From positions 25,923,501 through 25,987,500 of the forward strand of contig OW203725.1 of NCBI GenBank assembly GCA_934045075.1: a DNA stretch of 64,000 nucleotides, read 5' to 3'. Position 1 is the stretch's first letter, and each line of letters begins with the position of its first letter. Positions 31,753 to 61,978 of the stretch are shown here, piece after piece. This DNA is from Yponomeuta sedellus (lineage: Eukaryota; Arthropoda; Insecta; Lepidoptera; Yponomeutidae). A program made the position numbers and the translations under genes. Under the pieces are notes generated by a model. The model ran no database searches, was not told the origin of the DNA, and saw only the letters and a program-made list of their open reading frames with translations.

Positions 31753-31925
31753 AGTCTGCGTCGGTACGCCATTGCGAGTAGATGTGTGCGCTGTTCGCTA
31801 CTTTGCAAATAAGTACCCGCAGCAATTGCTTTTGTTTATTTATTAGTAAATAAAAGTGTGAAGTGCCTGCATACGTGTGCATCTGTGTTTGGCGTGTGCG
31901 TGCGTAGTGCACGTTATAAGATACG

Positions 31926-34454
31926 ATGGATGCGGCCGCGGCGCCTGGCGCCGATCTGTCGGCTGCCGGCGCCGCTATGGCGGGAGACGGCGAGGCGTCT
32001 GGCGGCGGCGCTCGAACTACCCACGAGGGAAAAAAACCAACTCGCGGTAAGTTGTGGGTGGTGGCAGCGAGGAAGCGAGGCCGCTCCACTGAGTCGGATG
32101 GGTCGTGGGACTCTGAGCCAGATGGCGAGGAGGAGACGGCTTTGCTCCCAAAGGTGTCCCGCGTAGGGACGCGCGGCGGTGTCGCCGCAAGGGCCCGTGG
32201 CAGAACGGCGAAGCGCGGCGGCGCCCGTAGAACGGCTGGTGAGGCGAAGGAGGCCGCCCGCGAAGAGCAGAAGCTCTGCGCGCAGGCAGAGGTGGCGAGC
32301 CTTACGGCTCAGTACTATCGTCGGTCGACATCGCCGCGTGCCTCGACGTCAGCGGCGTTCGCGGGGGGCGTCGTACCGGTGGGGGAACTTGTGGCTCAGA
32401 TAAACTCGGCTATTCTTTACATAGCTGAAGTGGGCCGCAAGTCCAAAAATATAAAGGGCGAGCTGCTTGGTGGCCTGAAGAAGGCTACGGCGGCGATCGG
32501 GGACGCTGTTGCGGAACTGAGTGTCCGCACGGCTACCGCCGAGACCCGCCGTGTCTCCGAGGAGAACGCCCGCCTCCGCGCTAGGGTCGACGAGCTGGAG
32601 AAGGCGAGCCGTGCCCCTGTTGTGGCACCCGTGCAGGCTGCCGCCGCCACTGTTCGCGCTTTGCCTGCTGCTGCTGCCGCTGTTCGTGCCTCGCCGGCTG
32701 CCGCCGCGGCGCGTGTGCCGCCGGCGGCTGACTCCGGGCGTGTACGGCTGCCGGCCGTTGCCGGATCGGCGCGAGCACCGGCGACTGCTGCGGCACGTGT
32801 GACCCACGGGTCGCCGGCCGCGACGGCGCGTGGGCCGCCGGCCGCCACGGCGCGTGGGCCGCCGGCCGTCGCGGTGCGTGTGCCGCCGGCGGTCGCGATG
32901 CGTGGGCCGCCGGCCGCTATGGTGCGTGGGCCGCCGGCCGCTACGGTGCGTGGGCCGCCGGCCGTCACGGTGCGTGTGCCGCCGGCCGTAACGGTGCGTG
33001 GGCCGCCGGTCGTCTCTGTGCGAGGTCCGCCGGCGGCCGCGGTACGCGGGCCGCCGCTCGCCGCCGTGCGCGGGTCAACGCCCGCCGCGGTGCGCGGGTC
33101 GCCAGCCGCCGTGGTGCGTGCCGCGCCGGCCCCCGGCGCCGGCGTGCGCGCTACGGTGTCGGCGGCTGCTGCTCGGGTGGCGGCGGCACGTGTTGCTACA
33201 CGCGGCACATATGCGGGTGCGGTGGCTGGCGGACGTGTTAGCTGCTCGCCCGCTTCTGCCAGCGGGCGTGCGGTAGGCGCGCACGGCGACTTGCCCGCGA
33301 CGGCGACGAGTGTGAGGGAGGACGCGGCGACCGCCCGCTCGCCACCCGCCGCTTGTGTGGATGATGAGACGAACGACGTCGACGTCGAGGTGATCGACGA
33401 CACGCCGACTGCTGCCTCGCCCGCGGACTGGGTGGTGCACGAGACACCCGCCCGCCGTCGCCGGCGTCGTAGGACGATGGCGGCGCGTCGGGTACCCGAC
33501 GGCGAGCTGTCGGGGCCCGCCTCTGCGTCCGTCCCGCTCGCGGGACCGGTGACGGCGGTGGCTCGTGGGACCGCGGGGACGCCACCCACGCCGGGCCAGC
33601 TGGCCGCGCGCAAGCTGCGTCTGCCGCGTTCTGCTGCAGTTGTTATTACGCTGCAGCCGGAGGCGATGGAAGCGGGCATGACGTATGCGCAGGTGATTTC
33701 GGAAGCGAGGTCAAAAATTGACATCGCTTCGCTTGAAATCACCTCGCTGCGGTTCAAGCGATCGGTCACCGGGGCGCGGGTGCTGGAGGTGGCGGGGGCG
33801 GGTGCCGCGAGTGCTACCAAGGCGGACGCGCTGGCCCGAAAACTGGAGGAGGTTCTCGGCTCGCAGACTGCGAGAGTTTCGAGGCCGATCAAGTCCGCAG
33901 AACTGCGGGTGTTCGGCCTCGACGATTCCGTCACAGCGGACGAGGTGACCGCTGCGGTGGCTCGCTCGGGTGAATGTGAACGGGGGGCGGTAAAGTGCGG
34001 TGAGGTGCGCCCTGGCGCGACCGGCGCTTGCGCAGCTTGGGTGCGCTGCCCCGTGTCTGCGGCGAAGAAGGTCCTCGCGGCGGGCCGCCTCTCAGTCGGA
34101 TGGGGCATGGCCCGAGTAGAGCTGCTGACGGCGCGCCCACTGCGCTGCTACAGGTGCTTGGAGCCTGGCCACACGCGTGCGCTATGCCCGTCGACGGAGG
34201 ACCGCAGTGATCTGTGTTATCGCTGCGGTGAGCCCGGCCACAAGGCCGGCGCCTGCCACGCCACGCCGCGCTGCACCCTGTGCGCGGCGGCGGGTAGGCC
34301 TTCTGAGCACACGTGCGGCAGCAAAGCCTGCCCTGCACCGAGGAGAGCGCCGGCGGTGAGTCTGGGCCCACAGGCCCCTCCCCAGCCACAGCGCCAGCCG
34401 ACCCCCGGTGCAGGGGCGGCTACTGCGGAGGCTGACATGGACACTGCCGCGTAA
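31926..34454 (+). CDS. TRAS-A ORF1, gag-like RNA-binding protein
   Basis: 842 aa. It is the structural protein that packages the element RNA and, in this group, directs it to telomeres. An Ala/Gly-rich N-terminus is followed by a short charged region with heptad-like pattern (about residues 195-220). Next is a low-complexity run of 8-residue repeats of the type GPPAAxVR (about 297-400). A conserved gag domain follows, with three Cys/His knuckles near the end: CYRCLEPGHTRALC from residue 741, CYRCGEPGHKAGAC, and CTLC...H...C. The ATG at 31926 is the first in frame after the 173-nt leader. The stop codon TAA touches the ATG of ORF2. Confidence 0.9.
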   Translation: MDAAAAPGADLSAAGAAMAGDGEASGGGARTTHEGKKPTRGKLWVVAARKRGRSTESDGSWDSEPDGEEETALLPKVSRVGTRGGVAARARGRTAKRGGARRTAGEAKEAAREEQKLCAQAEVASLTAQYYRRSTSPRASTSAAFAGGVVPVGELVAQINSAILYIAEVGRKSKNIKGELLGGLKKATAAIGDAVAELSVRTATAETRRVSEENARLRARVDELEKASRAPVVAPVQAAAATVRALPAAAAAVRASPAAAAARVPPAADSGRVRLPAVAGSARAPATAAARVTHGSPAATARGPPAATARGPPAVAVRVPPAVAMRGPPAAMVRGPPAATVRGPPAVTVRVPPAVTVRGPPVVSVRGPPAAAVRGPPLAAVRGSTPAAVRGSPAAVVRAAPAPGAGVRATVSAAAARVAAARVATRGTYAGAVAGGRVSCSPASASGRAVGAHGDLPATATSVREDAATARSPPAACVDDETNDVDVEVIDDTPTAASPADWVVHETPARRRRRRRTMAARRVPDGELSGPASASVPLAGPVTAVARGTAGTPPTPGQLAARKLRLPRSAAVVITLQPEAMEAGMTYAQVISEARSKIDIASLEITSLRFKRSVTGARVLEVAGAGAASATKADALARKLEEVLGSQTARVSRPIKSAELRVFGLDDSVTADEVTAAVARSGECERGAVKCGEVRPGATGACAAWVRCPVSAAKKVLAAGRLSVGWGMARVELLTARPLRCYRCLEPGHTRALCPSTEDRSDLCYRCGEPGHKAGACHATPRCTLCAAAGRPSEHTCGSKACPAPRRAPAVSLGPQAPPQPQRQPTPGAGAATAEADMDTAA
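32814..33135 (+). repeat. 24-bp coding minisatellite in TRAS-A ORF1
   Basis: About 13 degenerate copies of a 24-bp unit built on GCGTGGGCCGCCGGCC. Each encodes 8 residues such as GPPAATVR. The copy in element B at 42901-43222 is collinear, so the array was already present in the shared source element. Confidence 0.85.
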
Positions 34455-37400
34455 ATGGCCACGTGCAGATTCCTGCAGGCCAATCTGAACCATTGCGCGA
34501 GAGCACAGGACTTGCTGATCCAGAGCCTTGCGCAGTGGCAGATACACGTGGCGGTTGTCGCTGAGCCTTACCGGGTTCCGGCGCACGCCGGCTGGGCGGG
34601 TGACGACGACGGCACTGTCGCATTGGTCGTGAGGACGGGCGCTGGGGCACCACCGTTGGAGCGGCTGTCGAAGGGGCGCGGGTGGGTCGCGGGGGAGGTT
34701 GATGGCACGATGATCGTCGCCGTGTACTTCTCTCCGAACGGCTCACTTGCGCAGTTCGAGCGATACCTCCGCCAGCTCGAAGTGTTGGTGGCCGGGCGCC
34801 GTCCTCGCCACGTACTCGTCGCTGGGGACCTCAACGCCAAGTCACCGATGTGGGAGTCCACGGTGACAAACGCGCGAGGCAGGGAGGCGGAGGACTGGGC
34901 CGTTGCGGGAGGATACACGGCACTGAACAGGGGAGGGGTGCACACTTGTGTACGACACGAGGGAGGATCGGTCGTGGACGTCACGTTTGCGACACACTCC
35001 CTTGCGCGCCGCGTCACGGGTTGGGAAGTCTTGGAGGAGGTAGAAACTCTGTCGGACCACCGATACATTCGGTTCGATGTGACGGCCCTCTCTACGGCTC
35101 CGACCGACCTGTGGCACCCTCTGCCGGGAGAGCCCCCGCGCTGGGCTGTCAAACAGCTGGACAGGGAGCTGCTGCACGAGGCTGCCGAGGTTGAGGCCTG
35201 GGTCAAGGGCTCCGCCGCCAGCCCCGAGGATATAGACGTTTCGGCCGAGGTTGAGTGGCTTCGTGGGGCGCTAACGCGAGCCTGTGACGTCGCGATGCCC
35301 CGTCTTCGGCCTGGTGCCCCCTTTCGCCGCGTGCACTGGTGGTCATCGGAGATCGCGGAACTGCGGCTCGCCTGCGTGCGCGCTAGGCGTGCACACGCCC
35401 GCAGCCGCCGGCGGCGACTCCGCGATCCCGAGGAGGAGGACCGCCTGCTTGCGGCATACAGGGAGAGCAAGACTGCTCTGTCGACAGCCATTGCGGCGGC
35501 AAAGGACGCCGGATTTGCAGAAATGCTGGCCTCCCTTGACGCAGACCCGTGGGGCCGTCCGTACCGAATGGTGCGAGACAAGCTCCGCCCGTTTGCGCCG
35601 CCGCTCACCCGGAGCATGAGGCCGGAGACGGTGGACACTGTGGTCGCCGGCCTATTTCCACCCGCGAATGGACTTTCGCCTCCCCCGATGGGACTACCGG
35701 ATGGGACGGCCGAAACCGAAGCGCCGGAAGTGACGGCGGCAGAGCTCGGTGCCGCTATGCAGCGCCTTCGCGGCCGCAGAAAGGCCCCGGGCTTGGACGG
35801 GATCCCGGGGCGCGCGTTGATCATCGCCCTGGACCCTCTGGAGGAGAGGTTCAGGGCCTTGCTCACCGCGTGCCTCGTGCGGGGCCAGTTTCCCCAGCCG
35901 TGGAAGGTGGGTAAACTTGTCCTGCTGAGGAAGGAGGGCCGACCGGCGGACTTGCCATCAGGCTACCGCCCGCTCGTTCTCTTGGATGAGGTGGGGAAGC
36001 TGTTCGAGCGCATCCTGGTGGCCCGACTCGTGCGGCACATGGAGACGGTGGGGCCGGACCTTTCCGAGGCCCAATTTGGATTCCGGCACTTCCGGTCCAC
36101 CGTCGACGCGATCCGCAGAGTGAAGGGGATGGCGGAGGAGGCGCTGGCGGGACGCGATATGTTACTCGCTGTTTCGCTCGACATAGCGAACGCGTTTAAC
36201 ACCCTCCCCTGGGCCTGCATTGAGGAGGCGCTCCGGTACCACGGCTTCCCGGAGCACATGCGCCGCATCATCGGAGCTTACCTCTCCGAGAGGGAGATCC
36301 GGTATCCGGCGCGGGACGAGTGGGCGGCGAAACCCATGTCACGCGGCGTTCCGCAGGGCTCGGCCCTTGGCCCTACGCTGTGGAACATCGGCTTCGACTG
36401 GGTGCTGCGGGGTGCGCTACCGGAGGGGGCCGGCGTGACCTGCTATGCGGATGATACGCTGGTCACCTCCCGCGGCGCTAACTTTAGCGAAGCGGCCGCG
36501 CTCGCTACCGCGAGTGTAGAGGAGGTGCTTCAGCGCATCCGAGGACTGGGGCTGGAGGTGGCGCTCCACAAATGCGAGGCCCTGTGCATTCATAGGCCGC
36601 GGAGGGGGCCGCCGAATGGGGCTCGAGTGACGGTGGATGGGGTGGGGATCGATGTCGGGTCGGCCATGCGCTACCTCGGCATCGTTCTGGACTCGCGTCT
36701 GACGTTTTGCGAGCACTTCCGACGGCTCGCGCCGCGACTCATGGCCGCGTGCAGTGCCCTCGGCCGCCTGCTGCCGAACGTCGGTGGGCCGAATGCGGCT
36801 TGCCGGCGGCTTTACGCGCTGGTGGTGCGGTCGATGGCGCTGTACGGAGCACCCGTGTGGGAGGACTCCCTGGGGCGGGCGAACAGGGCCCTGCTGCACC
36901 GTCCGCAGAGGGCTATTTGCCTGCGAATGGTGCACGGCTACCGCACCGTCTCTTACGAGGCGGCGTGTGTGCTGGCCGCTTGCCTGCCCTGGGAGATGGA
37001 TGCACGTGTGCTCACGCTGGTGTACGACCGCGTCGCCGAGTGCCGGGCCGCGGGGGAGCCCCCGTCGAGGGAGGAGATGCTGCGTTGGCGCATGCGAGCT
37101 CGCAGACGTCTGCTCATCAGATGGCTGCGCGCACTCGAGGAGCCTACGGCGGGCCACGACACTATCGCCGCGGTGAGGCCGGTTCTCGAGCGTTGGCTGA
37201 CGAGGAGGCACGGAGTCCTCTCCTTCCACCTTACGCAGCTCCTCTCGGGGCACGGTTGCTTCGGGAGATATCTGTGGAGGGTGGCGGGAGCGGAACCCAC
37301 ACCCGAGTGCCACCACTGCGGTCACGACGAGGACACGGCACATCACACGTTGGTGGAGTGCCCGGCGTGGGCGGACGAGAGGGCGGCGCTGACTGTCGTG

Positions 37401-37613
37401 ATAGGGGTGGACCTGTCGCTGCCGGCCGTCGTGCGCTCGATGGTCGACAGCGAGGTAGCTTGGCGGGCCGTCCAGGCCTTCGCTGAGGCAGTCATGACTG
37501 CTAAAGAGGAGGCTGAGAGGCAGCGCGAGCGTGACCCCGAGGCACGGCGCGGAAGGCGGGAGCGCAGAAGGCGCAGAGCGGGTGTCGGTCAGAGGGTGCA
37601 AGACCCGGGGTAG
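34455..37613 (+). CDS. TRAS-A ORF2, endonuclease/reverse transcriptase
   Basis: 1052 aa. It should nick the telomeric repeat and copy the element RNA into the nick. The AP-type endonuclease covers about residues 1-210 with expected residues N10, E37, D125/N127 (GDLNAKSPMW) and SDHRYI near 202. The RT domain covers about 430-760 with a GVPQGSALGP motif and the YADD catalytic box at 664-667. The C-terminus carries the CHHCGHDEDTAHHTLVEC motif. It is in the same frame as ORF1 and begins directly after its stop (TAAATG). Translation is therefore likely by termination-reinitiation, as shown for the related SART1, though stop readthrough would also keep the frame. Confidence 0.92.
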   Translation: MATCRFLQANLNHCARAQDLLIQSLAQWQIHVAVVAEPYRVPAHAGWAGDDDGTVALVVRTGAGAPPLERLSKGRGWVAGEVDGTMIVAVYFSPNGSLAQFERYLRQLEVLVAGRRPRHVLVAGDLNAKSPMWESTVTNARGREAEDWAVAGGYTALNRGGVHTCVRHEGGSVVDVTFATHSLARRVTGWEVLEEVETLSDHRYIRFDVTALSTAPTDLWHPLPGEPPRWAVKQLDRELLHEAAEVEAWVKGSAASPEDIDVSAEVEWLRGALTRACDVAMPRLRPGAPFRRVHWWSSEIAELRLACVRARRAHARSRRRRLRDPEEEDRLLAAYRESKTALSTAIAAAKDAGFAEMLASLDADPWGRPYRMVRDKLRPFAPPLTRSMRPETVDTVVAGLFPPANGLSPPPMGLPDGTAETEAPEVTAAELGAAMQRLRGRRKAPGLDGIPGRALIIALDPLEERFRALLTACLVRGQFPQPWKVGKLVLLRKEGRPADLPSGYRPLVLLDEVGKLFERILVARLVRHMETVGPDLSEAQFGFRHFRSTVDAIRRVKGMAEEALAGRDMLLAVSLDIANAFNTLPWACIEEALRYHGFPEHMRRIIGAYLSEREIRYPARDEWAAKPMSRGVPQGSALGPTLWNIGFDWVLRGALPEGAGVTCYADDTLVTSRGANFSEAAALATASVEEVLQRIRGLGLEVALHKCEALCIHRPRRGPPNGARVTVDGVGIDVGSAMRYLGIVLDSRLTFCEHFRRLAPRLMAACSALGRLLPNVGGPNAACRRLYALVVRSMALYGAPVWEDSLGRANRALLHRPQRAICLRMVHGYRTVSYEAACVLAACLPWEMDARVLTLVYDRVAECRAAGEPPSREEMLRWRMRARRRLLIRWLRALEEPTAGHDTIAAVRPVLERWLTRRHGVLSFHLTQLLSGHGCFGRYLWRVAGAEPTPECHHCGHDEDTAHHTLVECPAWADERAALTVVIGVDLSLPAVVRSMVDSEVAWRAVQAFAEAVMTAKEEAERQRERDPEARRGRRERRRRRAGVGQRVQDPG

Positions 37614-37845
37614 GTCTTGCGCCTGAATGACGAAGTGTCGGTCGGCGCCGTGTCTAGTGTCCCTGACACGGCGGTCGGCAAGATAGAGGGATGAAAGTGA
37701 TTTCATGAATGAGGATTAATTTATGGGGCGGCGGGCACCAGCCGCGCCGCCCGCGCACGCGAGGAGTGCGTGAGTAAATGTGATGGATGAACGGTGCAGA
37801 GGTCGTGCTGAATCTGGAGTTGTGATCTGGGTAGCATGACCGGCA

Positions 37846-38440
37846 CATAAGACGAGGAGAGGGATGGCGCTCAGGTCGTGCCTGCTGGCTGGCGCGGAGC
37901 GCTCGTCACTGACCTGCGACCCGCGTCTAGTACGGTACGATCAGCGACAGAAGAAGAATGAATGGCTCGTTATACATGCCGGACCGCGGGCCGGGCGTTA
38001 CCACGCGCTTGCCCCGCGATCCGAATGGTGTGCCGAGCAGATATACCAGGTGATGGATGAGTGGTGCTCGGATCGTGCTAGATCGACGTGGAGCGGGCGC
38101 CACCACACGTGCGACCCACGATCGTAACTGGTGCGACCGTCACATAAGACGAGGAGAGGGATGGCGCTCAGATCGTGCCTTCCGGCTGGCGCGGAGCGCT
38201 CGTCACTGACCTGCGACCCGCGTCTAGTACGGTACGATCAGTGACAGAAGATGAATGAATGGCTCGTTATACATGCCAGACCGCGGGCCGGGCGTCACCA
38301 CGCGCTTGCCCCGCGATCGGAATGGTGTGCCGAGCAGAAATACAAGGTGATGGAAGAGTGGTGCTAGGTACGTGCTAGATCGACGTGGAGCGGGCGCCAC
38401 CACACGTGCGACCCACGATCGTAACTGGTGCGACCAGCAC
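37846..38440 (+). repeat. 298-bp tandem duplication in TRAS-A 3' UTR
   Basis: The unit beginning CATAAGACGAGGAGAGGGAT at 37846 restarts at 38144 with about 95% identity. A third unit is cut short after ACTGGTGCGACC near 38440. All three TRAS-A copies share it. Confidence 0.85.
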
Positions 38441-38613
38441 AACAAACAAGATATGATGGATGCTATGATGAAGAGAATGGGGGTAGCGGAGCGCCTATGG
38501 CTCCTCCACCGCTACCCTATGCGGAAACGCAAAAGGTGGGGACGGGGTCGCCAGCCGAGTTGCGGAGGTGTCTTTGCGAATCACGTAGCTCAGTGTGAAT
38601 GGCGAGAGACGGA

Positions 38614-38701
38614 ACACCGGAGGGGTTTTAGTGGGTGCAAGCCCTACATAACCCGGCGTTTTCCCCGAGACGCCGGGTATCTGTCAGAGATTTCCCCTCC
38701 G
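38614..38701 (+). promoter_or_regulatory. TRAS-A 3'-terminal hairpin module
   Basis: After GGGGTTTTAG come three hairpins: GTGGG with CCTAC (one G-U pair; CCCAC in copies B and C), CCCGGCG with CGCCGGG, and ATCT with AGAT. The end TTTCCCCTCCG leads into poly(A). The same order with different stem sequences is found in the E, D, G and TelNA families. It is the likely RT start signal. Confidence 0.7.
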
Positions 38702-38724
38702 AAAAAAAAAAAAAAAAAAAAAAA

Positions 38725-39497: not shown

Positions 39498-39621
39498 GGT
39501 TAGGTTAGGTTAGGTTAGGTTAGGTTAGGTTAGGTTAGGTTAGGTTAGGTTAGGTTAGGTTAGGTTAGGTTAGGTTAGGTTAGGTTAGGTTAGGTTAGGT
39601 TAGGTTAGGTTAGGTTAGGTT
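39498..39621 (+). repeat. telomeric (GGTTA)n array 3
   Basis: 124 bp of exact repeats, ending GGTT. Confidence 0.97.
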
Positions 39622-39784
39622 GGGGTGCGATGCCAGATTACCTTCCCGTGTGCCCTTCCGCTTCCGTTCCTACTGATTCATCTTGAACCAGTAGGAAGGG
39701 TAAGTGGCAAGGGCCGGTGCACCCTGGGCGCTGGTCAGTAACTTCTCTTTATGGGATCTTGCTGGCCAGCGGCGAAAAATCTGG
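39622..39784 (+). ncRNA. HDV-like self-cleaving ribozyme, TelNA copy 1
   Basis: The element's first nucleotides form P1: GGGGTGC (39622-39628) with GCACCCT (39719-39725), opening with a G-U pair as in HDV. P2 is CCAGAT (39633-39638) with ATCTGG (39779-39784). P3 is ACC (39640-39642) with GGT (39716-39718). P4 is CGCTGGTCAG (39729-39738) with CTGGCCAGCG (39762-39771), with one wobble. GGG at 39726-39728 can make P1.1 with CCC in the loop strand at 39645. The joining strand GCGAAAA (39772-39778) places the candidate catalytic C at 39773. The L3 strand is enlarged by an extra hairpin (TTCCTACTG/CAGTAGGAA). Cleavage would occur exactly at the element/telomere boundary. Activity is inferred. Confidence 0.8.
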
Positions 39785-39794
39785 AATCCGGTGG

Positions 39795-40184
39795 CGTCGC
39801 CTGGTCCCTGCTTCACACTGTGGAGTGGGGCCCAGGCGACTAAGAGGAGGAGGTCCGGCTGGGGGGGGCGCCTTCGGGTGCCTCGTACCAGTCGGACCGG
39901 AGTTACCGCTCTTTTGAGCGGTCGGAGGTGTCGTCGCCTGGTCCCTGCTTCACACTGTGGAGTGGGGCCCAGGCGACTAAGAGGAGGAGGTCCGGCTGGG
40001 GGGGGTGCCTTCGGGCGCCTCGTACCAGTCGGACCGGAGGTACCGCTCTTCGGAGCGGTATGAGGTGTCGTCGCCTGGTCCCTGCTTCACACTGTGGAGT
40101 GGGGCCCAGGCGACCAAGAGGAGGAGGTCCGGCTGGGGGGGGCGCTTTCGGGCGTCTCGTACCAGTCGGACCGGATGGCCGGAG
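39795..40184 (+). repeat. 137-bp tandem monomers, 3 units, TelNA copy 1
   Basis: Each unit folds into three hairpins: GTCGCCTGG/CCAGGCGAC; GGTCCGGCTGG/CCAGTCGGACC enclosing GGCGCC-UUCG-GGCGCC; and TACCGCTC-UUCG-GAGCGGTA. In unit 1 the last loop is TTTT. Differences between units preserve pairing through G-U wobbles. The third unit stops after GGACCGG. Confidence 0.85.
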
Positions 40185-40644
40185 GCGGAGGGTCCCCCGG
40201 TCCTCCGCCTCTGACACGGAGAGGGCCCACGCGGTCGCTCTCCACCTTCTCTGCCTCGGCAGAGAAGCGCTGGTGAGCGACGTGATGGGCCTCGCATCGA
40301 TGCGCCGCCCTCTTCTTGTCCCATTGCAGGGGCAGTGGGGCGGGGGGGGAGGGCGGCGCATTGGTGCGTATGGTGGACTGCGGGGGTGGAGCGGAGGGAG
40401 GAGGAGCCTCCAGCCGCTCCACTCCGGCGCAGATGTGAGGGCGGGAGAGGGCTGGTAGTTTCTGCTGGACCTCTTCCGCCCTTAACTTCGTTTGCACGTG
40501 CCACTTCTGGCGCGTGCAATCATCCAGATGTCAAGGGGATTGCCTTATCTTCCGAGGCAGTCCCCTATTGGTGCCAGCCCAGCTCGCAAGCTGGGCAGCC
40601 CGGGGGTGGACTGGTGAATTATATAGGTCCCAGGCCACCCCCAA

Positions 40645-40772
40645 GCAAGGGCATGAATGGAAGACGGGGAGTTTTAGTGGGTATTCCCAGCGCCCTAGTG
40701 GTGCTGGGCGAGTCCCACACGCGCCCGCCGCTTGCTAGCGGCGGGTAGTCCGTAAATGGATTTCTCCTCGAT
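40645..40772 (+). promoter_or_regulatory. TelNA 3' module shared with TRAS-D/G
   Basis: GGAGTTTTAGTGGG begins an outer stem that closes with CCCAC and encloses CCCAGC(GCC)/(GGT)GCTGGG. It is followed by CCCGCCGC/GCGGCGGG, then TCC/GGA, then TTTCTCCTCGAT and poly(A). This matches the TRAS-D end at 54405-54510 in order and in terminal sequence. Confidence 0.75.
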
Positions 40773-40793
40773 AAAAAAAAAAAAAAAAAAAAA

Positions 40794-40967
40794 GGTTAGG
40801 TTAGGTTAGGTTAGGTTAGGTTAGGTTAGGTTAGGTTAGGTTAGGTTAGGTTAGGTTAGGTTAGGTTAGGTTAGGTTAGGTTAGGTTAGGTTAGGTTAGG
40901 TTAGGTTAGGTTAGGTTAGGTTAGGTTAGGTTAGGTTAGGTTAGGTTAGGTTAGGTTAGGTTAGGTT
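40794..40967 (+). repeat. telomeric (GGTTA)n array 4
   Basis: 174 bp of exact repeats, ending GGTT. Confidence 0.97.
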
Positions 40968-40969
40968 TT

Positions 40970-41132
40970 GGGGTGCGATGCCAGATTACCTTCCCGTGTG
41001 CCCTTCCGCTTCCGTTCCTACTGATTCATCTTGAACCAGTAGGAAGGGTAAGTGACAAGGGCCGGTGCACCCTGGGCGTTGGTCAGTAACTTCTCTTTAT
41101 GGGATCTTGCTGGCCAGCGGCGAAAAATCTGG
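40970..41132 (+). ncRNA. HDV-like ribozyme, TelNA copy 2
   Basis: 163 nt, all helices as in copy 1. One change in P4 (CGTTGGTCAG) turns a C-G pair into U-G and keeps the helix. Confidence 0.78.
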
Positions 41133-41143
41133 TAACCTGGTGG

Positions 41144-41396
41144 CGTCGCCTGGTCCCTGCTTCACACTGTGGAGTGGGGCCCAGGCGACTAAGAGGAGGA
41201 GGTCCGGCTGGGGGGGGTGCCTTCGGGCGCCTCGTACCAGTCGGACCGGAGGTACCGCTCTTCGGAGCGGTATGAGGTGTCGTCGCCTGGTCCCTGCTTC
41301 ACACTGTGGAGTGGGGCCCAGGCGACCAAGAGGAGGAGGTCCGGCTGGGGGGGGCGCTTTCGGGCGCCTCGTACCAGTCGGACCGGATGGCCGGAG
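41144..41396 (+). repeat. 137-bp monomers, 2 units, TelNA copy 2
   Basis: Units start at 41144 and 41281, exactly 137 bp apart. Same hairpins with UUCG loops. Confidence 0.85.
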
Positions 41397-41980
41397 GCGG
41401 AGGGTACTCCCGTTCCTCCGCCTCTGACACGGAGAGGGCCCACGCGCTCGCTCTCCGCCTTCTCTGCCCCGGCAGAGAAGCGCTGGTGAGCGACGTGATG
41501 GGCCTCGCATCGATGCGCCGCCCTCTTCTTGTCCCATTGCAGGGGCAGTGGGGTGGGGGGGGGGCGGCGCGTTGGTGCGTATGGTGGACTGCGGGGGTGG
41601 AGCGGAGGGAGGAGGAGCCTCCAGCCGCTCCACTCCGGCGCAGATGTGAGGGCGGGAGAGGGCTGGTAGTTTCTGCTGGCCCTCTTTCGCCCTTATGTTC
41701 GTTTGCACGCGCCACTTTGGCGCGTGCATTCATCCTGGAGTAAAGGGGATTGCCTTGTCTTCCGAGGCAGTCCCCTATTGGTGCCAGCCCGGCTCGCAAG
41801 CTGGGCAGCCCGGGGGTGGACTGGTGAATTATATAGGTCCCAGGCCACCCCCCAGCAAGGGCATGAATGGAAGACGGGGAGTTTTAGTGGGTATTCCCAG
41901 CGCTCTTGTAGTGCTGGGCGAGTCCCACACGCGCCCGCCGCTTGCTAGCGGCGGGTAGTCCGTAAATGGATTTCTCCTCG

Positions 41981-42013
<33 letters not shown>

Positions 42014-42015
<2 letters not shown>

Positions 42016-42177
42016 TTAGGTTAGGTTAGGTTAGGTTAGGTTAGGTTAGGTTAGGTTAGGTTAGGTTAGGTTAGGTTAGGTTAGGTTAGGTTAGGTTAGG
42101 TTAGGTTAGGTTAGGTTAGGTTAGGTTAGGTTAGGTTAGGTTAGGTTAGGTTAGGTTAGGTTAGGTTAGGTTAGGTT
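42014..42177 (+). repeat. telomeric (GGTTA)n array 5
   Basis: 164 bp of exact repeats, ending GGTT. Confidence 0.97.
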
Positions 42178-44541
42178 GAGTCGGATGGGTCGTGGGACTC
42201 TGAGCCAGATGGCGAGGAGGAGACGGCTTTGCTCCCAAAGGTGTCCCGCGTAGGGACGCGCGGCGGTGTCGCCGCAAGGGCCCGTGGCAGAACGGCGAAG
42301 CGCGGCGGCGCCCGTAGAACGGCTGGTGAGGCGAAGGAGGCCGCCCGCGAAGAGCAGAAGCTCTGCGCGCAGGCAGAGGTGGCGAGCCTTACGGCTCAGT
42401 ACTATCGTCGGTCGACATCGCCGCGTGCCTCGACGTCAGCGGCGTTCGCGGGGGGCGTCGTACCGGTGGGGGAACTTGTGGCTCAGATAAACTCGGCTAT
42501 TCTATACATAGCTGAAGTGGGCCGCAAGTCCAAAAATATAAAGGGCGAGCTGCTTGGTGGCCTGAAGAAGGCTACGGCGGCGATCGGGGACGCTGTTGCG
42601 GAACTGAGTGTCCGCACGGCTACCGCCGAGACCCGCCGTGTCTCCGAGGAGAACGCCCGCCTCCGCGCTAGGGTCGACGAGCTGGAGAAGGCGAGCCGTG
42701 CCCCTGTTGTGGCACCCGTGCAGGCTGCCGCCGCCACTGTTCGCGCTTTGCCTGCTGCTGCTGCCGCTGTTCGTGCCTCGCCGGCTGCCGCCGCCGCGCG
42801 TGTGCCGCCGGCGGCTGACTCCGGGCGTGTACGGCTGCCGGCCGTTGCCGGATCGGCGCGAGCACCGGCGACTGCTGTGGCACGTGTGACCCACGGGTCG
42901 CCGGCCGCGACGGCGCGTGGGCCGCCGGCCGCCACGGCGCGTGGGCCGCCGGCCGTCGCGGTGCGTGTGCCGCCGGCGGTCGCGATGCGTGGGCCGCCGG
43001 CCGCTATGGTGCGTGGGCCGCCGGCCGCTACGGTGCGTGGGCCGCCGGCCGTCACGGTGCGTGTGCCGCCGGCCGTAACGGTGCGTGGGCCGCCGGTCGT
43101 CTCTGTGCGAGGTCCGCCGGCGGCCGCGGTACGCGGGCCGCCGCTCGCCGCCGTGCGCGGGTCAACGCCCGCCGCGGTGCGCGGTTCGCCAGCCGCCGTG
43201 GTGCGTGCCGCGCCGGCCCCCGGCGCCGGCGTGCGCGCTACGGTGTCGGCGGCTGCTGCTCGGGTGGCGGCGGCACGTGTTGCTACACGCGGCACATATG
43301 CGGGTGCGGTGGCTGGCGGACGTGTTAGCTGCTCGCCCGCTTCTGCCAGCGGGCGTGCGGTAGGCGCGCACGGCGACTTGCCCGCGACGGCGACGAGTGT
43401 GAGGGAGGACGCGGCGACCGCCCGCTCGCCACCCGCCGCTTGTGTGGATGATGAGACGAACGACGTCGACGTCGAGGTGATCGACGACACGCCGACTGCT
43501 GCCTCGCCCGCGGACTGGGTGGTGCACGAGACACCCGCCCGCCGTCGCCGGCGTCGTAGGACGATGGCGGCGCGTCGGGTACCCGACGGCGAGCTGTCGG
43601 GGCCCGCCTCTGCGTCCGTCCCGCTCGCGGGACCAGTGACGGCGGTGGCTCGTGGGACCGCGGGGACGCCACCCACGCCGGGCCAGCTGGCCGCGCGCAA
43701 GCTGCGTCTGCCGCGTTCTGCTGCAGTTGTTATTACGCTGCAGCCGGAGGCGATGGAAGCGGGCATGACGTATGCGCAGGTGATTTCGGAAGCGAGGTCA
43801 AAAATTGACATCGCTTCGCTTGAAATCACCTCGCTGCGGTTCAAGCGATCGGTCACCGGGGCGCGGGTGCTGGAGGTGGCGGGGGCGGGTGCCGCGAGTG
43901 CTACCAAGGCGGACGCGCTGGCCCGAAAACTGGAGGAGGTTCTCGGCTCGCAGACTGCGAGAGTTTCGAGGCCGATCAAGTCCGCAGAACTGCGGGTGTT
44001 CGGCCTCGACGATTCCGTCACAGCGGACGAGGTGACCGCTGCGGTGGCTCGCTCGGGTGAATGTGAACGGGGGGCGGTAAAGTGCGGTGAGGTGCGCCCT
44101 GGCGCGACCGGCGCTTGCGCAGCTTGGGTGCGCTGCCCCGTGTCTGCGGCGAAGAAGGTCCTCGCGGCGGGCCGCCTCTCAGTCGGATGGGGCATGGCCC
44201 GAGTAGAGCTGCTGACGGCGCGCCCACTGCGCTGCTACAGGTGCTTGGAGCCTGGCCACACGCGTGCGCTATGCCCGTCGACGGAGGACCGCAGTGATCT
44301 GTGTTATCGCTGCGGTGAGCCCGGCCACAAGGCCGGCGCCTGCCACGCCACGCCGCGCTGCACCCTGTGCGCGGCGGCGGGTAGGCCTTCTGAGCACACG
44401 TGCGGCAGCAAAGCCTGCCCTGCACCGAGGAGAGCGCCGGCGGCGAGTCTGGGCCCACAGGCCCCTCCCCAGCCACAGCGCCAGCCGACCCCCGGTGCAG
44501 GGGCGGCTACTGCGGAGGCTGACATGGACACTGCCGCGTAA
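42178..44541 (+). CDS. TRAS-A ORF1, N-terminally truncated copy
   Basis: Codons 56-842 of ORF1 in an open frame, but the original start and 5' UTR are gone. No ATG lies close to the truncation in frame, so production of this protein is doubtful. I noticed two residue differences from copy 1 (A to V before RVTHG; V to A before SLGP). All three Cys/His knuckles are kept. Confidence 0.8.
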   Translation, partial: ESDGSWDSEPDGEEETALLPKVSRVGTRGGVAARARGRTAKRGGARRTAGEAKEAAREEQKLCAQAEVASLTAQYYRRSTSPRASTSAAFAGGVVPVGELVAQINSAILYIAEVGRKSKNIKGELLGGLKKATAAIGDAVAELSVRTATAETRRVSEENARLRARVDELEKASRAPVVAPVQAAAATVRALPAAAAAVRASPAAAAARVPPAADSGRVRLPAVAGSARAPATAVARVTHGSPAATARGPPAATARGPPAVAVRVPPAVAMRGPPAAMVRGPPAATVRGPPAVTVRVPPAVTVRGPPVVSVRGPPAAAVRGPPLAAVRGSTPAAVRGSPAAVVRAAPAPGAGVRATVSAAAARVAAARVATRGTYAGAVAGGRVSCSPASASGRAVGAHGDLPATATSVREDAATARSPPAACVDDETNDVDVEVIDDTPTAASPADWVVHETPARRRRRRRTMAARRVPDGELSGPASASVPLAGPVTAVARGTAGTPPTPGQLAARKLRLPRSAAVVITLQPEAMEAGMTYAQVISEARSKIDIASLEITSLRFKRSVTGARVLEVAGAGAASATKADALARKLEEVLGSQTARVSRPIKSAELRVFGLDDSVTADEVTAAVARSGECERGAVKCGEVRPGATGACAAWVRCPVSAAKKVLAAGRLSVGWGMARVELLTARPLRCYRCLEPGHTRALCPSTEDRSDLCYRCGEPGHKAGACHATPRCTLCAAAGRPSEHTCGSKACPAPRRAPAASLGPQAPPQPQRQPTPGAGAATAEADMDTAA

Positions 44542-47500
44542 ATGGCCACGTGCAGATTCCTGCAGGCCAATCTGAACCATTGCGCGAGAGCACAGGACTT
44601 GCTGATCCAGAGCCTTGCGCAGTGGCAGATACACGTGGCGGTTGTCGCTGAGCCTTACCGGGTTCCGGCGCACGCCGGCTGGGCGGGTGACGACGACGGC
44701 ACTGTCGCATTGGTCGTGAGGACGGGCGCTGGGGCACCACCGTTGGAGCGGCTGTCGAAGGGGCGCGGGTGGGTCGCGGGGGAGGTCGATGGCACGATGA
44801 TCGTCGCCGTGTACTTCTCTCCGAACGGCTCACTTGCGCAGTTCGAGCGATACCTCCGCCAGCTCGAAGTGTTGGTGGCCGGGCGCCGTCCTCGCCACGT
44901 ACTCGTCGCTGGGGACCTCAACGCCAAGTCACCGATGTGGGAGTCCACGGTGACAAACGCGCGAGGCAGGGAGGCGGAGGACTGGGCCGTTGCGGGAGGA
45001 TACACGGCACTGAACAGGGGAGGGGTGCACACTTGTGTACGACACGAGGGAGGATCGGTCGTGGACGTCACGTTTGCGACACACTCCCTTGCGCGCCGCG
45101 TCACGGGTTGGGAAGTCTTGGAGGAGGTAGAAACTCTGTCGGACCACCGATACATTCGGTTCGATGTGACGGCCCTCTCTACGGCTCCGACCGACCTGTG
45201 GCACCCTCTGCCGGGAGAGCCCCCGCGCTGGGCTGTCAAACAGCTGGACAGGGAGCTGCTGCACGAGGCTGCCGAGGTTGAGGCCTGGGTCAAGGGCTCC
45301 GCCGCCAGCCCCGAGGATATAGACGTTTCGGCCGAGGTTGAGTGGCTTCGTGGGGCGCTGACGCGAGCCTGTGACGTCGCGATGCCCCGTCTTCGGCCTG
45401 GTGCCCCCTTTCGCCGCGTGCACTGGTGGTCATCGGAGATCGCGGAACTGCGGCTCGCCTGCGTGCGCGCTAGGCGTGCACACGCCCGCAGCCGCCGGCG
45501 GCGACTCCGCGATCCCGAGGAGGAGGACCGCCTGCTTGCGGCATACAGGGAGAGCAAGACTGCTCTGTCGACAGCCATTGCGGCGGCAAAGGACGCCGGA
45601 TTTGCAGAAATGCTGGCCTCCCTTGACGCAGACCCGTGGGGCCGTCCGTACCGAATGGTGCGAGACAAGCTCCGCCCGTTTGCGCCGCCGCTCACCCGGA
45701 GCATGAGGCCGGAGACGGTGGACACTGTGGTCGCCGGCCTATTTCCACCCGCGAATGGACTTACGCCTCCCCCGATGGGACTACCGGATGGGACAGCCGA
45801 AACCGAAGCGCCGGAAGTGACGGCGGCAGAGCTCGGTGCCGCTATGCAGCGCCTTCGCGGCCGCAGAAAGGCCCCGGGCTTGGACGGGATCCCGGGGCGC
45901 GCGTTGATCATCGCCCTGGACCCTCTGGAGGAGAGGTTCAGGGCCTTGCTCACCGCGTGCCTCGTGCGGGGCCAGTTTCCCCGGCCGTGGAAGGTGGGTA
46001 AACTTGTCCTGCTGAGGAAGGAGGGCCGACCGGCGGACTTGCCATCAGGCTACCGCCCGCTCGTTCTCTTGGATGAGGTGGGGAAGCTGTTCGAGCGCAT
46101 CCTGGTGGCCCGACTCGTGCGGCACATGGAGACGGTGGGGCCGGACCTTTCCGAGGCCCAATTTGGATTCCGGCACTTCCGGTCCACCGTCGACGCGATC
46201 CGCAGAGTGAAAGGGATGGCGGAGGAGGCGCTGGCGGGACGCGATATGTTACTCGCTGTTTCGCTCGACATAGCGAACGCGTTTAACACCCTCCCCTGGG
46301 CCTGCATTGAGGAGGCGCTCCGGTACCACGGCTTCCCGGAGCACATGCGCCGCATCATCGGAGCTTACCTCTCCGAGAGGGAGATCCGGTATCCGGCGCG
46401 GGACGAGTGGGCGGCGAAACCCATGTCACGCGGCGTTCCGCAGGGCTCGGCCCTTGGCCCTACGCTGTGGAACATCGGCTTCGACTGGGTGCTGCGGGGT
46501 GCGCTACCGGAGGGGGCCGGCGTGACCTGCTATGCGGATGACACGCTGGTCACCTCCCGCGGCGCTAACTTTAGCGAAGCGGCCGCGCTCGCTACCGCGA
46601 GTGTAGAGGAGGTGCTTCAGCGCATCCGAGGACTGGGGCTGGAGGTGGCGCTCCACAAATGCGAGGCCCTGTGCATTCATGGGCCGCGGAGGGGGCCGCC
46701 GAATGGGGCTCGAGTGACGGTGGATGGGGTGGGGATCGATGTCGGGTCGGCCATGCGCTACCTCGGCATCGTTCTGGACTCTCGTCTGACGTTTTGCGAG
46801 CACTTCCGACGGCTCGCGCCGCGACTCATGGCCGCGTGCAGTGCCCTCGGCCGCCTGCTGCCGAACGTCGGTGGGCCGAATGCGGCTTGCCGGCGGCTTT
46901 ACGCGCTGGTGGTGCGGTCGATGGCGCTGTACGGAGCACCCGTGTGGGAGGACTCCCTGGGGCGGGCGAACAGGGCCCTGCTGCACCGTCCGCAGAGGGC
47001 TATTTGCCTGCGAATGGTGCACGGCTACCGCACCGTCTCTTACGAGGCGGCGTGTGTGCTGGCCGCTTGCCTGCCCTGGGAGATGGATGCACGTGTGCTC
47101 ACGCTGGTGTACGACCGCGTCGCCGAGTGCCGGGCCGCGGGGGAGCCCCCGTCGAGGGAGGAGATGCTGCGTTGGCGCATGCGAGCTCGCAGACGTCTGC
47201 TCATCAGATGGCTGCGCGCACTCGAGGAGCCTACGGCGGGCCACGACACTATCGCCGCGGTGAGGCCGGTTCTCGAGCGTTGGCTGACGAGGAGGCACGG
47301 AGTCCTCTCCTTCCACCTTACGCAGCTCCTCTCGGGGCACGGTTGCTTCGGGAGATATCTGTGGAGGGTGGCGGGAGCGGAACCCACACCCGAGTGCCAC
47401 CACTGCGGTCACGACGAGGACACGGCACATCACACGTTGGTGGAGTGCCCGGCGTGGGCGGACGAGAGGGCGGCGTTGACTGTCGTGATAGGGGTGGACC

Positions 47501-47700
47501 TGTCGCTGCCGGCCGTCGTGCGCTCGATGGTCGACAGCGAGGTAGCCTGGCGGGCCGTCCAGGCCTTCGCTGAGGCAGTCATGACTGCTAAAGAGGAGGC
47601 TGAGAGGCAGCGCGAGCGTGACCCCGAGGCACGGCGCGGAAGGCGGGAGCGCAGAAGGCGCAGAGCGGGTGTCGGTCAGAGGGTGCAAGACCCGGGGTAG
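44542..47700 (+). CDS. TRAS-A ORF2, intact copy
   Basis: 1052 aa, the same domains as the copy at 34455, with YADD and all endonuclease residues present. I noticed three substitutions relative to copy 1 (S to T in NGLTPP, Q to R in QFPRPW, R to G in IHGPRR). It keeps TAAATG coupling to the truncated ORF1. Without the element's own 5' UTR, expression would depend on telomeric or upstream transcription. Confidence 0.9.
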   Translation: MATCRFLQANLNHCARAQDLLIQSLAQWQIHVAVVAEPYRVPAHAGWAGDDDGTVALVVRTGAGAPPLERLSKGRGWVAGEVDGTMIVAVYFSPNGSLAQFERYLRQLEVLVAGRRPRHVLVAGDLNAKSPMWESTVTNARGREAEDWAVAGGYTALNRGGVHTCVRHEGGSVVDVTFATHSLARRVTGWEVLEEVETLSDHRYIRFDVTALSTAPTDLWHPLPGEPPRWAVKQLDRELLHEAAEVEAWVKGSAASPEDIDVSAEVEWLRGALTRACDVAMPRLRPGAPFRRVHWWSSEIAELRLACVRARRAHARSRRRRLRDPEEEDRLLAAYRESKTALSTAIAAAKDAGFAEMLASLDADPWGRPYRMVRDKLRPFAPPLTRSMRPETVDTVVAGLFPPANGLTPPPMGLPDGTAETEAPEVTAAELGAAMQRLRGRRKAPGLDGIPGRALIIALDPLEERFRALLTACLVRGQFPRPWKVGKLVLLRKEGRPADLPSGYRPLVLLDEVGKLFERILVARLVRHMETVGPDLSEAQFGFRHFRSTVDAIRRVKGMAEEALAGRDMLLAVSLDIANAFNTLPWACIEEALRYHGFPEHMRRIIGAYLSEREIRYPARDEWAAKPMSRGVPQGSALGPTLWNIGFDWVLRGALPEGAGVTCYADDTLVTSRGANFSEAAALATASVEEVLQRIRGLGLEVALHKCEALCIHGPRRGPPNGARVTVDGVGIDVGSAMRYLGIVLDSRLTFCEHFRRLAPRLMAACSALGRLLPNVGGPNAACRRLYALVVRSMALYGAPVWEDSLGRANRALLHRPQRAICLRMVHGYRTVSYEAACVLAACLPWEMDARVLTLVYDRVAECRAAGEPPSREEMLRWRMRARRRLLIRWLRALEEPTAGHDTIAAVRPVLERWLTRRHGVLSFHLTQLLSGHGCFGRYLWRVAGAEPTPECHHCGHDEDTAHHTLVECPAWADERAALTVVIGVDLSLPAVVRSMVDSEVAWRAVQAFAEAVMTAKEEAERQRERDPEARRGRRERRRRRAGVGQRVQDPG

Positions 47701-48788
47701 GTTTTGCGCCTGAATGACGAAGTGTCGGTCGGCGCCGTGTCTAGTGTCCCTGACACGGCGGTCGGCAAGATAGAGGGATGAAAGTGATTTCATGAATGAG
47801 GATTAATTTATGGGGCGGCGGGCACCAGCCGCGCCGCCCGCGCACGCGAGGAGTGCGTGAGTAAATGTGATGGATGAACGGTGCAGAGGTCGTGCTGAAT
47901 CTGGAATTGTGATCTGGGTAGCATGACCGGCACATAAGACGAGGAGAGGGATGGCGCTCAGGTCGTGCCTGCTGGCTGGCGCGGAGCGCTCGTCACTGAC
48001 CTGCGACCCGCGTCTAGTACGGTACGATCAGCGACAGAAGAAGAATGAATGGCTCGTTATACATGCCGGACCGCGGGCCGGGCGTTACCACGCGCTTGCC
48101 CCGCGATCCGAATGGTGTGCCGAGCAGATATACCAGGTGATGGATGAGTGGTGCTCGGATCGTGCTAGATCGACGTGGAGCGGGCGCCACCACACGTGCG
48201 ACCCACGATCGTAACTGGTGCGACCGTCACATAAGACGAGGAGAGGGATGGCGCTCAGATCGTGCCTTCCGGCTGGCGCGGAGCGCTCGTCACTGACCTG
48301 CGACCCGCGTCTAGTACGGTACGATCAGTGACAGAAGATGAATGAATGGCTCGTTATACATGCCAGACCGCGGGCCGGGCGTCACCACGCGCTTGCCCCG
48401 CGATCGGAATGGTGTGCCGAGCAGAAATACAAGGTGATGGAAGAGTGGTGCTAGGTACGTGCTAGATCGACGTGGAGCGGGCGCCACCACACGTGCGACC
48501 CACGATCGTAACTGGTGCGACCAGCACAACAAACAAGATATGATGGATGCTATGATGAAGAGAATGGGGGTAGCGGAGCGCCTATGGCTCCTCCACCGCT
48601 ACCCTATGCGGAAACGCAAAAGGTGGGGACGGGGTCGCCAGCCGAGTTGCGGAGGTGTCTTTGCGAATCACGTAGCTCGGTGTGAATGGCGAGAGACGGA
48701 ACACCGGAGGGGTTTTAGTGGGTGCAAGCCCCACATAACCCGGCGTTTTCCCCGAGACGCCGGGTATCTGTCAGAGATTTCCCCTCCG

Positions 48789-48857
<69 letters not shown>

Positions 48858-48931: not shown

Positions 48932-49056
48932 AAGTTGGTATTTTCGTGTTGTTTGTCTATTTTCGTTTTGTTTCGTGTTATATGTGTTGTTTTTAACTTC
49001 GGTTAAAGATTTTCTCTCCCACCGAGTCAGTCGTGGGCAGGGCCCTCGACTGGTCG

Positions 49057-54000: not shown

Positions 54001-54211
54001 CGGAAGCATCCCCGGGTTGCCGAGTATGGTTGTAGCCATGCTTGGCAGCTCGGAGGTCTGGGAGGCTGCCGTTTCCTTCGCCGAGGCAGTTGTCTCGGCG
54101 AAGGAGGCTGCGGAGAGGGAGCGGGAGGAGGATGCTCAAGCCGCTCCCATCCGGCGCAGACGTAGGGGCAGGAGAAGGCGGGTAGCCTCTACTAGCCTTC
54201 TTCAGCCCTGA
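51038..54211 (+). CDS. TRAS-D ORF2, endonuclease/reverse transcriptase
   Basis: 1057 aa. The ATG at 51038 overlaps the last 11 nt of ORF1 in the +1 frame, unlike the stop-then-start arrangement of TRAS-A. Endonuclease residues: N13, E40, D126/N128 (GDLNAKSAAW), SDHLYI. The RT has GVPQGSVLGP and an FADD catalytic box (668-671). The C-terminal motif is CHHCDSLDDTAEHTLSVC. A TTG just upstream (51035) is not a likely start. Confidence 0.9.
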   Translation: MSNRPIGKILQGNLNRSARAQDLVCQSAAEWNIDLAVIAEPNVVPSSTKWVGAADGLAAIMVTGVAPPLVMVERGAGYVAARWGGMMVVSTYFSPNGSRVDFESLLAAVEGVVRRAAPSSVLVAGDLNAKSAAWGSPSPNVRGGILESWVLSLGLQILNRGAAPTCTRWQGTSIVDVSFATPSLAARIRDWRVMEEVETLSDHLYIRYEVSTASPGTPLRLGRAAGASPFPRWGLARLQPDVAEEAALVRAWAEVPEAIAGDADGMAELFADDMKVVCDAAMPRVQACPPNRGQVYWWTPELSGLRATSMGARRAYQRCRRRATKVPGEEETLHRAYTEANMALRIAICRAKNDAWEQFLGILNSDPWGRPYRVIRGKLSAAAPPTSCMEPGLLRRVLGTLFPSPGPFTPPRMMAPGSTLEERTDGPPVTQAEFDMARIRLRRKKKTPGPDGVPARVLAIALGPLEDRFRAALDACIATVRFPKRWRVGRLCLLRKESRPADSPAGYRPIVLLDEAAKVFEKILASRIIEHLEGTGPDLAECQYGFRTGRSTMDALGHLRRWSVLATAKGEVAIVVSLDIANAFNSIPHECIEEALKFHRVPSYLCALVGDYLRDRVVLYENAEGRVEPWRVEAGVPQGSVLGPLLWNLGYNWVLRGQSLPRMEVVCFADDTLVAAAAGDWEDAVRRASVGTSMVVRRIRLLGLEVALGKTRAMAFHAPRRRTPPGLHVRVDGVRIPVEVHMKYLGLILDPRWSFEEHFRLLAPRLCSAAAALGRLLPNVGGPGAACRRLYHGVIRSMALYGAPVWAESLTPRIRALLRRPQRVIATRAVRAYRTVSHGAACVLAGTPPWDIEASVLARVYQHRLEARMRGERPVPAEVERVRTVAREEALHWWMEALASPTAGHRTIEAIRPVLEEWLGRQDGSLTFRLVQVLTGHGCFGHYLHRVARREETPRCHHCDSLDDTAEHTLSVCPAWQDERRELMAALGGSIPGLPSMVVAMLGSSEVWEAAVSFAEAVVSAKEAAEREREEDAQAAPIRRRRRGRRRRVASTSLLQP

Positions 54212-54396
54212 AGTAGGACTGCACACGCCAGTGGCACTGGCGTGTGCATTGCACAAGTCCTGACGTCTGGGGATTGCCTCATCTTCCTGAGGTAATCCTC
54301 CGTTGGCGCCAGCCCGGCCAAAAAGCCGGGCAGCCCGGGGGTGGTTTGGTGTATTACACTTAGGTCCCAAACCGCCCCCCCCAACAAGGGCATGAA

Positions 54397-54510: not shown

Positions 54511-54539
<29 letters not shown>

Positions 54540-54866: not shown

Positions 54867-54876
54867 AATCCGGTGG

Positions 54877-56452: not shown

Positions 56453-56463
56453 AAACCTGGTGG

Positions 56464-57302: not shown

Positions 57303-57335
<33 letters not shown>

Positions 57336-61931: not shown

Positions 61932-61978
<47 letters not shown>

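Follow-up and report, generated by a model that had tools for sequence, protein, structure and literature searches.

Telomere-specific SART is listed among the long interspersed nuclear elements (LINEs) that carry ribozymes of the hepatitis delta virus (HDV) type at their 5′ ends (PMC11620745, citing Ruminski 2011; this and the other papers compared here are drawn on from parts of their text), and the kind of arrangement reported here is therefore already known, HDV-like ribozymes in telomere-specific SART preceding the present case. The R2/R1 hybrid short internally deleted elements (SIDEs) of Drosophila are short non-autonomous elements with a 5′ ribozyme, the 3′ end of R1 and a 14-bp target duplication of the R1 type (PMC3414825). 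In trypanosomatids, the HDV-like 5′ ribozyme Pr77/L1TcRz is common to the long L1Tc and the short NARTc elements (PMC4748587), and R2 ribozymes trim the element RNA from a co-transcript with the target repeat, junction variation being erased at each round (PMC3774820). Retrozymes and Penelope-like/Terminon elements are also ribozyme-bearing retroelements, some of them non-autonomous, and differ by their hammerhead ribozymes and circular RNA intermediates (PMC7761336). Here we analysed a window of 64,000 bases of Yponomeuta sedellus DNA (GCA_934045075.1, contig OW203725.1, positions 25,923,501 to 25,987,500), the terminal part of a contig of 25,987,500 bases in an assembly of 657.5 Mb and 57 contigs. 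It holds four copies of a short retroelement, element A, headed by a 163-nt module that is, judging from its sequence, very probably an HDV-like self-cleaving ribozyme.

Eleven (TTAGG)n arrays lie between 31,456 and 62,287 of the window, with elements interspersed. Since TTAGG on the + strand reads toward the contig end, the elements would point to the chromosome end, and a read-through transcript would carry (UUAGG)n. The copies of element A and of the module are the following (window positions; within the module, position 1 is 39622 and position 163 is 39784).

39500 to 39621, + strand: (TTAGG)n array immediately 5′ of element A copy 1 (repeat scan)
39622 to 40793, + strand: element A copy 1 with poly(A), longest frame 180 aa
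40970 to 42013, + strand: element A copy 2
54704 to 55875, + strand: element A copy 3
56290 to 57335, + strand: element A copy 4
39622 to 39784, + strand: predicted HDV-like ribozyme module copy 1, version 1 sequence (descriptor); identical sequence in 16 of the 31 full copies of the first 29 sources
40970 to 41132, + strand: predicted ribozyme module copy 2, preceded by two extra T (descriptor, alignment)
54704 to 54866, + strand: predicted ribozyme module copy 3 (descriptor, alignment)
56290 to 56452, + strand: predicted ribozyme module copy 4 (descriptor, alignment)

By complementarity and by descriptor, the module satisfies the nested double pseudoknot topology, with a 7-bp P1 at the predicted cut, P2 crossing P1, P3 beside the 3′ strand of P1 (P1′), and P4 between P1′ and the 3′ strand of P2 (P, paired region; L, loop; J, joining strand). 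In copy 1 its parts are:

39622 to 39628, + strand: P1 5′ strand GGGGTGC, predicted cut 5′ of 39622; invariant in 24/24 distinct copies
39633 to 39639, + strand: P2 5′ strand CCAGATT; pair 39639-39778 lost in the four version 2 rows
39640 to 39642, + strand: P3 5′ strand ACC (pair counts)
39643 to 39651, + strand: single-stranded L3 TTCCCGTGT, with U 39643 and G 39648 at the trans G-U signature spacing and P1.1 bases 39644-39645 (register by comparison with HDV numbering)
39652 to 39714, + strand: extra 63-nt hairpin within the enlarged L3 (fold; four pairs with changes on both sides)
39716 to 39718, + strand: P3 3′ strand GGT, adjoining P1′ on its 5′ side (pair counts)
39719 to 39725, + strand: P1 3′ strand GCACCCT, with a terminal G-U pair (pair counts)
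39726 to 39728, + strand: GGG following P1′, of which 39726-39727 pair with 39644-39645 as P1.1 (pair counts)
39729 to 39771, + strand: P4 hairpin with L4, of 13 bp and, as folded, with an apical stem (two pairs with changes on both sides)
39772 to 39777, + strand: J4/2 GCGAAA, candidate catalytic C at 39773 (conservation)
39778 to 39784, + strand: P2 3′ strand AATCTGG, the 3′ module edge, where identity between element families breaks

A first-pass annotation of this DNA had proposed an HDV-like ribozyme at the first base of the element, and fold, position and conservation pattern support it, with cleavage itself a prediction. All the parts it had named within 39622-39784 were found in place, and the further copies at 40970, 54704 and 56290 are present; P2 lies where it was put and is 7 bp long, one more than had been given. 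The stretch 39643-39715 has a fold energy of -40.6 kcal/mol against a shuffled mean of -19.1 (z -6.9). In the Drosophila R2 and SIDE ribozymes the large loop is J1/2 (PMC3414825), whereas here the extra length lies in L3.

We then compared the module across the genome (L-numbers denote loci fetched from the same genome). The window and the first 28 loci, the first 29 sources, amount to 289,304 bases scanned on both strands, and their 31 full modules comprise 12 distinct sequences. With two modules from four further chromosome ends and 20 from 5′ ends of family C, a LINE described below (20 of 40 listed places, chosen for divergence, ~255 bases read per place), there are 53 module rows from 51 distinct places, L005 being within L020; 24 distinct sequences were used for pair counts. 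The module exists in two versions, 82% alike. For version 1, 40/40 scored matches were exact (922 first-look candidates), and for version 2, 39/40 full-length scored matches (505 first-look candidates); as nearly all scored matches are exact, the true copy numbers of both versions are probably higher than scored.

The HDV-type signature includes a U and a G in L3, five positions apart, which form a trans G-U (trans Watson-Crick) pair (PMC3386971). U22 and G27 stand at this spacing and are invariant in all 24 distinct copies, and the candidate catalytic C in J4/2 (position 152) is kept in 24/24. P1.1 pairs in every one of them, 24-105 always as CG and 23-106 as CG in 12, UG in 8 and UA in 4; note that this register was set by analogy with HDV numbering and fixed after the variation was seen. 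Position 25, unpaired in the chosen register, is C or A, and a P1.1 pairing 25 with 106 was dropped, being broken in version 2, where 23-106 fits instead.

Such a fold is not expected by chance. The strict descriptor gave 5/5 criteria in 4/4 window copies and no match in 6.75 million shuffled positions, a zero that is not a clean P value, the criteria having been written after the candidate was seen. A loose descriptor matched 37 of 3,584,000 window-shuffled and 67 of 3,166,520 element-shuffled positions, none with more than three of the five strict criteria; applied to the unshuffled first 29 sources, it found all 31 modules and 10 other places, the latter close to the shuffled rate of 1-2 per 100,000 positions. 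These shuffled-sequence counts rule out a chance fold. In addition, the module start coincides with the base fixed independently as the element end. Among IMG/VR and GTDB contigs there were 1 and 9 exact pattern matches, none of module length (best hidden Markov model E 0.0019 over 39 bases), which we estimate to be about the chance expectation.

The module heads three families: A (1.0-1.2 kb, in the window), B (~0.9 kb) and C, a ~6.2-kb R1-type LINE in (TTAGG)n; the idea that it is private to element A is thereby ruled out. Element A, of 1,046-1,172 nt with poly(A), is 84% like the element at 59183-61978 and 80% like that at 48932-54539 over its last ~415 nt, and its three frames of at least 200 aa gave no Pfam match. 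It thus combines SIDE-type features, a 5′ ribozyme module and the 3′ end of an R1-type element without recognisable coding capacity. Internal repeats of 137 bp, 2.8 copies, occur at 39790-40175 and 54872-55257, the copies at 40970 and 56290 being about one unit shorter. The frames of element B of 220 and 191 aa had no Pfam match either; B as a coding element was rejected on the 220-aa frame (L003), which lacks a Pfam match and ranges from 105 to 269 residues among 10 B copies. In a survey of full-length elements the module was present on 9/9 readable A rows and 14/14 readable B rows, a further four rows being unreadable. Nine of the B rows come from loci found via the ribozyme (two repeat L020 rows), and L015, L020, L027 and L028 were fetched for a module match; the survey, its rows being partly selected through the ribozyme, says little on 5′ truncation.

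For family C, the copy at the start of contig C3 (L011) extends over 6,163 nt from ribozyme to poly(A) and lies between two TTAGG arrays. Its open reading frame (ORF) 1 has 705 aa, and its ORF2 frame of 1,016 aa contains Exo_endo_phos_2 and RVT_1, i.e. an endonuclease of apurinic/apyrimidinic (AP) type and a reverse transcriptase, with the TRAS1 endonuclease as best solved relative. This ORF2 is 45-47% identical to those of the LINEs of the window, aligned from their residue 32-36, and the frame opens at TTG; its start may not be intact. The best named protein matches of family C are lepidopteran, and some bee matches carry R1 names. The family is inserted between T and A of TTAGG with poly(A), as is SART1 (PMC7265360). 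A second conserved stretch (94-98% between L011 and L017) covers element positions 300-400, in the 5′ untranslated region of family C, 3′ of the ribozyme.

Family C looks like the SART case as described; on that comparison the module here differs in standing also on two short elements and perhaps in its extra L3 hairpin. The R2/R1 SIDEs are the closest match for element A. Those insert at the 28S site (PMC3414825), whereas here the setting is telomeric, the ribozyme is common with an R1-type LINE and not known to derive from R2, copies are many and near-identical, and L3 carries the extra hairpin. In the titles and abstract starts listed by our searches of open-licence papers, no non-autonomous telomeric element with an HDV-like ribozyme was named.

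The 5′ ends of the elements are precise. The junction TTAGGTT/GGGG is found in 34/53 module rows and in 19/20 family C 5′ ends. The first-pass annotation had the predicted cut at the base where telomeric repeat meets element in all four window copies, which does not hold at 40970, where two extra T stand between TTAGGTT and GGGG; extra junction bases are also found at L022, and R2 junctions likewise carry them (PMC3774820). Many R2 ribozymes cut upstream, in 28S (PMC3774820), unlike the cut predicted here. Six B copies lie outside long telomeric arrays (L001, L002, L003, L006, L007 and L008; at L001 two TTAGG units adjoin the copy) and have 14-15-bp target duplications, which start with GG after an A and stop at the base before GGGG.

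The base 5′ of GGGG is T in 52/53 rows, the six sites outside long arrays included; second-strand cutting, or the junction itself, may thus favour T. At L004:1501, L015:9186, L005:579 and L020:1487 and 2589, newer copies are inserted within the first 5-10 bases of an older copy; the target duplication is then GGTTGGGGTGCGAT or GGTTAGGTTGGGGT, the latter used repeatedly, and head-to-tail arrays result. At L047 the first 16 element bases are duplicated immediately ahead of a full element, perhaps by a template jump or as a long target duplication. L018 and L026 show T runs after TTAGGTT, followed by GGTAACGCGG, that is, elements in opposite orientation, which we take to be TRAS-like.

Variation among copies is consistent with an RNA fold. 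Over the named pairs, 99.1% of 1501 cells in the 24 distinct copies hold standard pairs, and pairing falls to 30-51% when partners are shifted by 1-3 columns. Changes on both sides occur at seven pairs, one in P1.1, four in the L3 hairpin and two in P4, giving 28 cells against 5.9 in shuffles (0/500 shuffles as high). Between versions 1 and 2, 4/57 core columns differ against 25-31/107 in the periphery (P about 0.001-0.01), and all 20 family C 5′ ends match copy 1 except at L3 positions 23 and 25, in the L3 hairpin and at the P4 tip (126, 127 and 129). That differences between window copies preserve pairing, as had been claimed, is true of C to T at position 110 and A to G at position 51; it fails at position 86, where copies 40970 and 56290 have A for G and a C-G pair of the L3 hairpin becomes C-A. 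A genome pattern search for modules with P1 position 4 changed, at telomere junctions, gave 0 matches. Covariation thus backs P1.1, P4 and the L3 hairpin, and for P1, P2 and P3 the support is complementarity and invariance.

Several results weigh against a ribozyme. The first-pass annotation had named a covariance-model search as a check, and this returned no HDV model, either at Rfam gathering thresholds over the whole window or at E up to 10 over 39500-42100, 39610-39800 and one version 2 copy, the sensitivity of Rfam for R2- and SART-type ribozymes being unchecked; the L3 insertion and the pseudoknot may be causes of this miss. By two of the five shuffle measures the covariation is weak: seven pairs with changes on both sides compare with 4.0 in shuffles (13/500 as high), and 22 further pair types with 20.8 (150/500 as high). 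The both-sides cells number four at each of the seven pairs, all in version 2 rows, and these changes largely reflect one split between the versions. The helices of the first pseudoknot, P1, P2 and P3, show no covariation, P1 and P3 never vary, and P2 varies only by pair 18-157, unpaired in version 2, and by one deleted C (L003). A few cells are unpaired in the L3 hairpin and the P4 tip. The near-identity of version 1 across families could be due to recent exchange instead of selection. Finally, the B copies at non-telomeric sites need a transcript other than telomeric RNA, which makes a promoter in the module possible.

Exchange of the module between families is apparent from where identity stops. 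A (39622) and B (L003) agree at 163/163 positions of the module, then at 37/50 and 33/51. Two B copies carrying version 1 (L003) and version 2 (L005) agree at 134/164 positions inside the module and at 149/150 just outside it, then at 76-99% per stretch. Two C copies (L011 and L017) agree at 161/163 inside and at 64-98% in later stretches, the last excluded since L017 ends there. As A-B and A-C diverge from position 164 and the versions last differ at position 156, the breaks fall in or directly after the P2 3′ strand AATCTGG. Because the families diverge right past the last module base, and B has either version with near-identical next 150 bases, the ribozyme module behaves, on this comparison, as an exchangeable part among families. 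The periphery is able to change, as version 2 shows, and the near-identity of version 1 among families therefore points to recent exchange. Template jumps are documented for R2 (PMC3414825), and by analogy they would produce such 5′-module swaps. A more elaborate form is conceivable though doubtful: the reverse transcriptase would stall at the 3′ edge of the module, within AATCTGG, and jump to the ribozyme of another element, families swapping 5′ ends; where copies stand head to tail in telomeric arrays, each ribozyme would moreover define the 3′ end of the copy preceding it, and the resulting unit RNAs, with A(n)(UUAGG)n at their 3′ ends, could prime on telomeric DNA.

Taken as a whole, the account that we find highly likely is that of an HDV-like ribozyme with an L3 hairpin, freeing the element RNA of A, B and C, with mobilisation of A and B in trans. 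Direct backing comes from fold complementarity, from the covariation seen beyond P1-P3, from the precise 5′ ends and their target duplications, and from sharing by three families; catalysis, read-through transcription and mobilisation in trans are steps that we infer. The module begins at nucleotide 1 both in C, an R1-type LINE that targets telomeres, and in A and B, which are short and lack recognisable genes. RNA polymerase would enter the element from upstream, at chromosome ends via (TTAGG)n, giving (UUAGG)n RNA. The ribozyme would then fold and cut just 5′ of GGGG, the RNA starting at the exact element end regardless of the upstream sequence. Target-primed reverse transcription would copy this RNA into a new A/GG site, the LINE-like 3′ end and poly(A) serving as guides, with A and B using the LINE machinery in trans. 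Because the 3′ end is shared, A may be mobilised by its partner LINE; the SART1 3′ untranslated region works in trans (PMC7265360).

A module shared in this way suggests a common tool for freeing element RNA from longer transcripts. If cutting takes place, it would show how short passengers of telomeric LINEs get exact 5′ ends from read-through RNA, and would link telomere transcription to the supply of retroelements at the chromosome ends of insects. With one 163-nt predicted catalytic module so sharply exchanged among three families, 5′-module swapping in LINE-type elements also becomes open to direct test, and the L3 hairpin, if the ribozyme is real, would mean that an HDV-type fold tolerates a 63-nt insertion beside the active site.

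Among other explanations, the one that survives best overlaps this account: a dual function as DNA promoter and RNA ribozyme, as in Pr77/L1TcRz, where a 77-nt module common to long and short elements has both activities (PMC4748587), and which differs from the present module in its length, in belonging to another LINE clade and in its known promoter function, no telomeric target being described with it. It would suit the B copies at non-telomeric sites, where telomere read-through is unavailable; the exact ends, however, are explicable by a ribozyme alone, and we regard a double role as possible, well short of probable. A promoter without ribozyme, the module being an internal RNA polymerase II promoter (initiator and downstream element) and the RNA fold incidental, is compatible with the position and strong conservation of the module. 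SART1 and TRAS1 are said to contain motifs of the downstream promoter element (PMC4748587), and R1 lineages at telomeres have been taken to imply their own promoter (PMC3414825), an inference that the present case qualifies. Yet the shared stretch ends only with the P2 3′ strand, at base 163, far beyond a core promoter, changes on both sides preserve RNA pairs, and HDV-core positions are among the invariant ones, all of which make this reading very improbable. Equally hard to credit is an RNA structure with another job, such as marking the 5′ end for the reverse transcriptase, shielding that end or starting translation internally: the lack of an Rfam HDV match would fit it and help in translation is another proposed role of HDV-like ribozymes (PMC8256844), but a generic structure has no need of the HDV-core match (J4/2 C, L3 U/G, P1.1), and translation as the sole job is unlikely because A and B retain the module although they have no recognisable genes. 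A tRNA-derived element was discarded, the Rfam runs having given no tRNA match within the module.

The window also holds LINEs of its own, of which two share the 3′ end of element A:

48932 to 54539, + strand: coding R1/SART-like LINE, ORF1 at 49033-51048 and ORF2 at 51035-54211, 3′ end common with element A
59183 to 61978, + strand: related element with ORF1, 3′ end as in element A

At the 5′ ends of the window LINEs at 31753, 48932 and 59183 no ribozyme was found by descriptor and model, and these ends may be incomplete; the LINE at 48932 begins ~140 bases inside the element at 59183. A ribozyme on every telomeric LINE was accordingly dropped as a proposal, none being seen at these three, with the same caveat on their ends. 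The LINE copies at 31753-38724 and 42178-48857 are 99.7% identical, with a 297-bp tandem duplication 3′ of ORF2 and 24-bp repeats in ORF1. Past the last array, from 62288 to 64000, the contig finishes in non-telomeric sequence.
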